In this document: piece after piece, positions 2,756 through 40,153 of the stretch
Position numbering within the stretch: position 1 is the stretch's first letter
How the letters are laid out: the number at the start of each line of letters is the position of its first letter
Assembly (NCBI GenBank): GCA_027295405.1
Contig: JAPUKZ010000211.1
Coordinates: forward strand, 1 to 40,274
Reading direction: 5' to 3'
From: Gammaproteobacteria bacterium
GTDB taxonomy: Bacteria > Pseudomonadota > Gammaproteobacteria > Pseudomonadales > Halieaceae
DNA length: 40,274 nucleotides
Notes under the pieces: model-generated
Told to the model about the DNA's origin: nothing
The model's database searches: none
Seen by the model: only the letters and a program-made list of their open reading frames with translations
Translations under genes and position numbers: made by a program

Positions 2756-3601
2756 ATGAAATTTGAAGGAACTGAACGCTATGTGGCAACCGAAGACTTG
2801 CGCATGGCGGTTAATGCCGCTGTAATCCTGCAGCGTCCGCTGTTGATAAAAGGCGAGCCCGGTACCGGCAAGACCATGCTCGCGCAAGAGGTGGCCCAGG
2901 CGCTGGGTATGCCCCTGATCGAGTGGCACATCAAATCGACCACCAAAGCCCAACAGGGATTATACGAATACGACGCGGTGTCGCGGTTGCGTGACTCGCA
3001 ACTCGGTGATGGCAAGGTTCACGATATTGCCAATTACATAAAACCCGGCAAACTGTGGGATGCATTTGATTCCGATGAGCGAGTGGTACTGTTGATCGAC
3101 GAGGTGGATAAGGCGGATATCGAATTTCCCAATGACTTGTTGGTGGAACTGGACCGGATGGAGTTTTTTATCTACGAGACCGGCGAGACCATCAAGGCCA
3201 AACAGCGCCCGGTGATATTCATCACCAGCAATAACGAAAAAGAACTGCCGGATGCATTTTTGCGTCGCTGTTTCTTCCATTTCATCAACTTTCCCGATCG
3301 CGACACCATGCGCCAGATTGTGGATGTGCACTACCCGGCGATCGCTCAGGAACTGGTGCAGGAAGCGATGGAGGTATTTTTCGATTTGCGCAGCATTCCC
3401 GGCCTGAAGAAGAAGCCATCTACCTCGGAATTGATCGACTGGTTGAAGTTGCTGATGGCCGACGATATGCCCGACGAAATACTCAAGAATCGGGATCACA
3501 GCAAGGCCATCCCGCCCCTGTACGGTGCCTTGCTGAAGAACGAACAGGATGTACACCTGCTGGAGCGCCTGGCGTTCATGCACCGGCGCGAGATGCGCTA
3601 G
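2756..3601 (+). CDS. MoxR-family AAA+ ATPase
   Basis: Walker A GEPGTGKTM, Walker B VVLLIDEVDKAD, sensor VIFITSNNEKELPDAFLRRC. Confidence 0.95.
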   Translation: MKFEGTERYVATEDLRMAVNAAVILQRPLLIKGEPGTGKTMLAQEVAQALGMPLIEWHIKSTTKAQQGLYEYDAVSRLRDSQLGDGKVHDIANYIKPGKLWDAFDSDERVVLLIDEVDKADIEFPNDLLVELDRMEFFIYETGETIKAKQRPVIFITSNNEKELPDAFLRRCFFHFINFPDRDTMRQIVDVHYPAIAQELVQEAMEVFFDLRSIPGLKKKPSTSELIDWLKLLMADDMPDEILKNRDHSKAIPPLYGALLKNEQDVHLLERLAFMHRREMR

Positions 3602-3607
3602 TGTAGC

Positions 3608-3693
3608 AGTGTTCCTCCTCACTCATATTGTAGCTTTCAGCGAGTCGCCAAGGGGAGGCTCTGAAAGCTACAATATGAGTGAGGAGGAACACT
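3608..3693. repeat. Perfect inverted repeat, 33-bp arms (3608-3640 / 3661-3693), 20-nt loop
   Basis: Reverse complement of 3661-3693 equals 3608-3640 at all 33 positions, checked base by base. Confidence 0.98.
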
Positions 3694-3697
3694 TGTC

Positions 3698-4873
3698 ATG
3701 CTGATCAATTTTTTCCAGGGCCTGCGCGATGCAGGCGTCCCGGTGACCACCAAGGAGCTACTCGACCTGCTGGAGGGCCTCCAGCAGCGGGTGGCCTTCG
3801 CCGATATGGACGACTTTTATTATTTCTCCCGCGCCTGCATGGTCAAGGACGAAAAGTATTTTGACCGTTTCGACCGGGCCTTCGGCCTGCACTTCCAGGG
3901 GCTGGAGGCGCTGGACGATATCATCGAAGCCCTGATACCCGATGACTGGCTGCGCAGCGAGTTCATGAAGAACCTCAGCGAGGAGGACAAGGCCAAGATT
4001 GAATCGCTGGGTGGTCTGGAAAAACTGATCGAGGAATTCAAGAAACGCCTGGAGGAGCAGAAGGAGCGGCACGAGGGTGGCAATAAATGGATCGGCACCG
4101 GTGGCACCTCGCCCTTTGGCCAGGAAGGCTACCACCCCGAGGGAATTCGGGTCGGACCCAAAGGCAAGAACCAGAAAGCGGTGAAAGTCTGGGAGAAGCG
4201 CGATTTTGCCAACCTCGACGATTCGGTGGAGTTGGGTACGCGCAATATCAAGATCGCACTGCGGCGTCTGCGCAAGTTTGCCCGTACCGGCGCTGCTGAC
4301 GAGTTGGATCTCGATGACACCATCAGTTCCACAGCGCGCAATGCCGGGCTGCTGGATATCAAGATGGTGCCCGAACGACACAATGCGGTGAAGGTACTGC
4401 TGTTCTTCGATGTGGGAGGCTCCATGGATCCCCACATCAAGATATGTGAGGAATTGTTCTCCGCGGCGCGCACCGAGTTCAAACACATGGAGCTCTTCTA
4501 TTTTCACAACTTCGTGTACGAGTCGGTGTGGAAGAACAACATCCGCCGCCACAACGACCGCACCCAGATGCTGGATATCATGCACAAGTACAGCCATGAC
4601 TATAAGATTGTGTTTGTGGGTGATGCCTCCATGTCCCCCTATGAAATTGTCCAGCCCGGTGGCAGTGTCGAGCACTGGAACGAAGAAGCCGGAGAGATTT
4701 GGATGCGCCGGTTGACCCATACTTACGACAAGGTAATTTGGCTGAATCCGGTGCCGGAAGACGAATGGGAATATACCCAATCGGTGTCCATGACCCGCCA
4801 GTTGCTGGAGGGTCATATGTATCCTCTTAGCCTCAGAGGCCTGGAAGAGGGTATGTCCTACCTGTCCAGGTAG
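3698..4873 (+). CDS. VWA domain-containing CoxE-like protein (COG3825 type)
   Basis: MLINFFQGLRDAGVPVTTKELLDLLEGL...; LLFFDVGGSMDPHI MIDAS-like segment; follows a MoxR ATPase. SD AGGAGG at 3682-3687. Confidence 0.9.
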   Translation: MLINFFQGLRDAGVPVTTKELLDLLEGLQQRVAFADMDDFYYFSRACMVKDEKYFDRFDRAFGLHFQGLEALDDIIEALIPDDWLRSEFMKNLSEEDKAKIESLGGLEKLIEEFKKRLEEQKERHEGGNKWIGTGGTSPFGQEGYHPEGIRVGPKGKNQKAVKVWEKRDFANLDDSVELGTRNIKIALRRLRKFARTGAADELDLDDTISSTARNAGLLDIKMVPERHNAVKVLLFFDVGGSMDPHIKICEELFSAARTEFKHMELFYFHNFVYESVWKNNIRRHNDRTQMLDIMHKYSHDYKIVFVGDASMSPYEIVQPGGSVEHWNEEAGEIWMRRLTHTYDKVIWLNPVPEDEWEYTQSVSMTRQLLEGHMYPLSLRGLEEGMSYLSR

Positions 4874-40079: not shown

Positions 40080-40153
40080 GGCTGGATGGCAGAGTGGTTA
40101 TGCAGCGGACTGCAACTCCGTGTAGATCGGTTCGATTCCGTTTCCAGCCTCCA
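40080..40153 (+). tRNA. tRNA-Cys (GCA), CCA encoded
   Basis: GGCTGGA/TCCAGCC acceptor stem, anticodon loop CTGCAAC, TTCGATT T-loop; downstream of pgsA. Confidence 0.95.

Follow-up and report, generated by a model that had tools for sequence, protein, structure and literature searches.

The 86-bp inverted repeat at positions 3608-3693, located between a moxR gene and a gene for a CoxE-like VWA protein, is an IS630-type MITE that has most likely displaced the native ribosome-binding site and now supplies the Shine-Dalgarno (SD) sequence of the VWA gene, hidden in its own hairpin. The window, i.e. the whole stretch of 40,274 nucleotides that was analyzed, comes from a gammaproteobacterium of the family Halieaceae. 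The repeat belongs to a mobile family with IS630-like ends and a TA target, and copies of this family are recurrently placed before start codons.

The upstream gene (2756-3601, forward strand) encodes a MoxR-type AAA+ ATPase, with Pfam AAA and AAA_5 matches in the ORF and a TAG stop codon at 3599-3601. The downstream ORF (3698-4873, forward strand) encodes the 391-aa VWA protein (VWA_CoxE, PF05762). As described in an earlier sequence-only reading of this DNA, positions 3608-3640 (left TIR, forward) and 3661-3693 (right TIR, reverse) are exact reverse complements of 33 nt around a 20-nt centre (3641-3660, forward strand). When mismatches were allowed, the arms grew to 42 nt at 90%. The second-best inverted repeat in the window had 21 nt at 81%, and the predicted RNA fold (-73.5 kcal/mol, z = -9.2) was matched in stability by 0 of 200 shuffles, so a chance origin is excluded. 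The right arm contains AGGAGG at 3682-3687 (forward strand), the predicted SD of the VWA gene, and the left arm contains the complementary CCTCCT at 3614-3619, both as previously noted. The spacing is 10 nt from AGGAGG to the ATG at 3698 and 4 nt from the end of the repeat. Folding of the whole leader placed this SD inside the stem, as had been proposed, with a probability of being unpaired of ~0.0001, compared with 0.34 when the left arm was absent. Its duplex with the anti-SD (-12.2 kcal/mol) was the best of all junctions compared, the median of 69 junctions in relatives being -5.6. An intrinsic terminator was ruled out, in line with the earlier reading, because no U-tract directly follows the stem: the sequence after 3693 is TGTCATGCTGATCAA, and a T6 run is found 15 nt beyond the stem, within the VWA gene. 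A scan with Rfam 15 gave no structured RNA family above the gathering cut-off at the hairpin, the only hit in the window being a tRNA at 40080-40150. Two small features were also seen here. The sequence TAGTGTAGC at the moxR stop (3599-3607) resembles a second, partial TIR start beside the left arm, and a nine-codon ORF (3675-3704) starts in the right arm and ends just past the VWA start codon, which may be a re-initiation leader or chance.

Searches of the same genome with a 101-bp stretch alone gave ~12 further places with family copies, and adding a longer family member brought this to about 15. Many genomic copies had been named beforehand as the sign of a mobile palindromic repeat, and this is what was found. 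Of 140 further genomes from this bacterial family, five, in three genera, also contained the element family, and a search with the TIR pattern gave 2-19 matches in each of four other genomes. In a GTDB-wide exact scan it was confined to MAGs of Gammaproteobacteria/Halieaceae from a small number of assemblies (B19, B36, B37 ‘Guay6’ and SI047_bin19). A plasmid or phage origin was dropped, as searches of both gave no match to the element. The copies are short (49-303 bp), non-coding, bounded by 33-nt TIRs with the consensus AGTGTACCTCGTCACTCATATTGTAACATTCAG, and dispersed in several copies per genome, as is characteristic of MITEs; the window copy has the same short, non-coding, TIR-bounded form.

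The interiors of the copies are built from modules, CGAGTCGCCAAGGGG being the left type and AGCCTCCCAATTYGTTCGCTGC the right type, and the window copy joins both by deletion. In its centre, the left-type CGAGTCGCCAAGGGG is joined to the right-type GGGAGGCT; this centre matches that of another copy (C2; 95 bp, same architecture, 29-nt centre) minus 9 nt. The left TIR differs from the family consensus at four positions, each matched in the right arm. These differences may reflect variation in the source element or hairpin-templated correction. They are not in themselves proof of selection, since matched arm variants occur in other copies as well. Two variants of the family design were observed besides. 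Palindromes of 49 bp (L182 388-436, and also L186, L188, L192, L194, L196 and L206) represent the minimal form of the family in the congeneric genomes G086 and G022, the one at L182 having matched CCTCCT/AGGAGG arms. At L050, L052 and L097, a second TIR type (V-type), TAGTGTACTGTAACGTATAAAGTGTACATTCAG, is found around these modules, which looks as though one interior were shared by two transposase specificities.

A link to IS630 was given by G088, a relative that carries the MITE together with one intact IS630-family transposase (L146; NF033545, 289 bits; DDE_3). Both ends of this transposon, TAGTGTAGGTCGTCAAACAGTTTGTAAC and TAGTGTAGGTCGTCATAAATAGTGTAAC, agree with the MITE end at 22/28 positions. 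Among 207,124 positions of other IS630 loci, matches of at least 19/28 to the MITE end were found only at other IS630 ends. For the V-type end, a similar end was seen in another IS630 relative, L155. The MITE and L146 have similar TIRs, the same CTAG/TA target and the same host family, and they reside in the same genome, but only L146 codes for a transposase, and mobilization of the MITE by L146 is a candidate link. In place of the GACGAGG of the MITE, the L146 ends have GACGACC. Searches with PF13358 revealed no IS630 transposase in the window's own genome (88% complete), and no transposase was found to adjoin family copies repeatedly. Weak IS630-like fragments in G086 and G022 have no TIR of this kind.

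IS630 insertion duplicates TA. The flanks of the MITE copies had C at -2 in 67 of 79 cases and T at -1 in 53 of 79, giving the target CT|AG. At the junction before a STAS protein gene, G086 reads GGT-TA-GAATG and its sister species G022 reads GGT-TA[GTG...CAC]TA-GAATG, which is an exact TA duplication around an inserted element. Empty sites were likewise found at the PanB and VWA junctions of G086. Target-site duplication and empty sites are therefore observed at the level of the family; in the window copy itself the TA duplication is not intact (CA..TT).

The comparison covered 69 moxR-VWA junctions from relatives in the same bacterial family, with L024 included at its true gap of about 30 nt. 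In 68 of these the genes are separated by -1 to 40 nt without a recognised element, so the pairing is not conserved at the junction. Where an element is present, the gap is 96 nt (window) or 73 nt (G022). The G022 copy (C3, L271) belongs to another genus than the window and is a relic of the same MITE family, CGC-TA[GTGCACC...GCGCAC]TC-GTG. It begins exactly at the moxR stop, so that TA plus the element's G gives TAG. The congener G086 reads CGC-TAATG at the same place and has no element. Shared ancestry of the window and G022 insertions is thus disfavoured, and two independent insertions into the same gap are the simplest reading of these sequences.

The TIR ends of the family carry the SD-like heptamer GACGAGG, which is GAGGAGG in the window copy. 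The calculated anti-SD energy of the TIR end was -7.3 kcal/mol, compared with +0.6 for the V-type end and -0.6 for the IS630 end (L146), which is not SD-like because it reads GACGACC. Reading outward from 83 intact ends, the start codon of a recognisable gene was found within 0-7 nt in 13 cases, set against about 60 copies: proB (0 nt), priA (1), an ABC transporter (1), dinG (1 or 4), panB (2), hslU (3), a STAS protein (3), a carboxylesterase-like protein (3), VWA (4), sdhE (4), a lipoprotein (4), fur (6) and a VanY-like protein (7). Further start codons were located 12-14 nt (three) and 20-23 nt (two) from ends. The N-termini are backed by profile positions for PanB (1-80 on 1-79), HslU (4-80 on 1-77) and Fur (1-80 on 1-78), and those of PriA, DinG, ProB and SdhE likewise fit their family profiles. 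Of random intergenic TA, YTAR or CTAG sites, 4-8% are this near to a start codon, corresponding to ~3-5 expected of 60. The enrichment has P values of 1.2e-6 to 1.1e-3 for the 13 cases and, with a strict set of nine, of 0.001 to 0.06, to be read with a null that relies on crude gene calls, an observed set that was partly hand-checked, and a contribution from short operon gaps. The heptamer was retained at 16/18 start-side ends and 48/65 other ends, which is not significantly better (P = 0.22). In the hslU leader, G022 (L258, C6) carries a full 266-bp element and G086 (L257, C13) carries only the SD-bearing end, GTGACGAGGTACACCAGT, directly before the ATG.

Most likely, then, the native ribosome-binding site was displaced by the element, which now provides the VWA gene with an SD buried in a hairpin. 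The 3608-3693 repeat is best explained as a non-autonomous IS630 (Tc1/mariner) MITE in which internal deletion has left only two 33-nt TIRs and the 20-nt centre. The comparison with relatives shows that it was inserted into a short moxR-VWA junction, which separated the start codon of VWA by about 90 nt from its native initiation context at the moxR end (-1 to 40 nt in relatives). Translation of the VWA gene would persist because an SD-like sequence, suitably spaced, is part of the TIR end, which probably acts as its SD; in the window copy, a G-to-C change in the TIR appears to have made a perfect AGGAGG out of ACGAGG. On the mRNA of moxR and VWA, the two TIRs are predicted to pair as a 33-bp hairpin over this SD, so independent VWA initiation should be low unless RNase III cuts the stem or it is opened, possibly by the ribosome that finishes moxR 6 nt before it. 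The buried SD would then lower VWA translation or couple it to moxR. The family may be tolerated at operon junctions in that a TA insertion can restore a TAG stop for the gene before it and provide an SD for the gene after it. As the element ends look like ribosome-binding sites, copies can land directly before genes, apparently without silencing them.

The same elements may be no more than neutral passengers, i.e. an IS630-type MITE in a short operon gap whose SD likeness is coincidental, with the near-start copies reflecting short gaps and the loss of gene-breaking insertions. The short native gaps (three sister junctions have -1, 1 and 4 nt) and the similar SD conservation at start-side and other ends agree with this. 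However, copies at 0-7 nt from starts are ~3x more frequent than expected from intergenic target sites, genes such as panB, hslU and proB were retained although the insertions part the native SD from the start, and in G086 nothing but the SD-bearing end persists before hslU. Taken together, we consider neutrality unlikely, while still giving it real weight. Slightly more credible, though possible rather than probable, is the broader idea of a mobile translation-initiation cassette. Here the TIRs contain an SD that the related IS630 ends lack, and insertion at the TA of an operon junction would rebuild the upstream stop and give the downstream gene a working SD that is hairpin-locked at first; hosts would later erode the distal arm, keep the SD end and so rewire the translational coupling of the operon.

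A locus-specific hairpin, selected to keep VWA translation below that of the ATPase, would fit the fully paired SD and the arms that still pair perfectly although both depart from the consensus at four matched positions. It nevertheless appears improbable: the genes lie close together, with no element between them, at the 68 other junctions of the bacterial family, the same sequence is found at unrelated genes, and matched arm variants are not particular to this copy. Even less credible is a template-switch duplication of the SD region, or a fold-back assembly artefact at the locus, which we regard as very remote. The draft genome consists of 527 contigs, and long perfect palindromes can arise as chimeras, but the centre is asymmetric family sequence common to other copies, and full-length relatives are present in independently assembled genomes. 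The SD in the stem, the missing terminator and the mobile palindrome foreseen by the earlier reading thus held up, while its locus-specific hairpin and template-switch origin did not.

IS630-type MITEs are already known. The closest to the window MITE is RUP of pneumococcus, an IS630-Spn1-related MITE of 107 bp found at TA sites, which is also short, non-coding and intergenic with IS630-like TIRs (PMC2229807, PMC3049150). Compared by published description, RUP differs in host and sequence and has a TIR of 9 bp in a review table versus 33 nt here, and that review gives no functional motif for RUP and does not mention an SD (PMC2229807, PMC3049150). The Correia/NEMIS elements of Neisseria also have TIRs with terminal TA, are cotranscribed with their neighbours and form an mRNA hairpin, which is cut by RNase III (PMC2229807, PMC10969869). 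Their likeness to the window MITE is one of architecture, and the effects described for them involve promoter-like motifs, IHF sites and RNA cleavage (PMC2229807, PMC10969869). ERIC of enterobacteria is similarly cotranscribed between genes, has TA termini and needs ribosomes translating nearby for its effect, but has another sequence and affects the stability of the upstream message via an RNase E site, with no SD supply reported (PMC2229807). The words ‘ribosome’ and ‘Shine-Dalgarno’ are both absent from the main text of a 2024 review on prokaryotic MITEs, and no description of a MITE family with SD-bearing TIRs at start codons was found in the literature searched, the coverage of which was incomplete. 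If the proposed role of the element is true, it shows how an operon junction can take up a transposon while the gene that follows is kept. The natural series of full palindrome, damaged arm and SD end only would be suited to tests of SD-hiding hairpins in coupled translation.

The MITE family is scattered through related marine bacteria. Elements were additionally seen in the same cyaY-side intergenic region of two genera (L046 1286-1484 and L066 1514-1546), which is probably a second repeatedly hit site.
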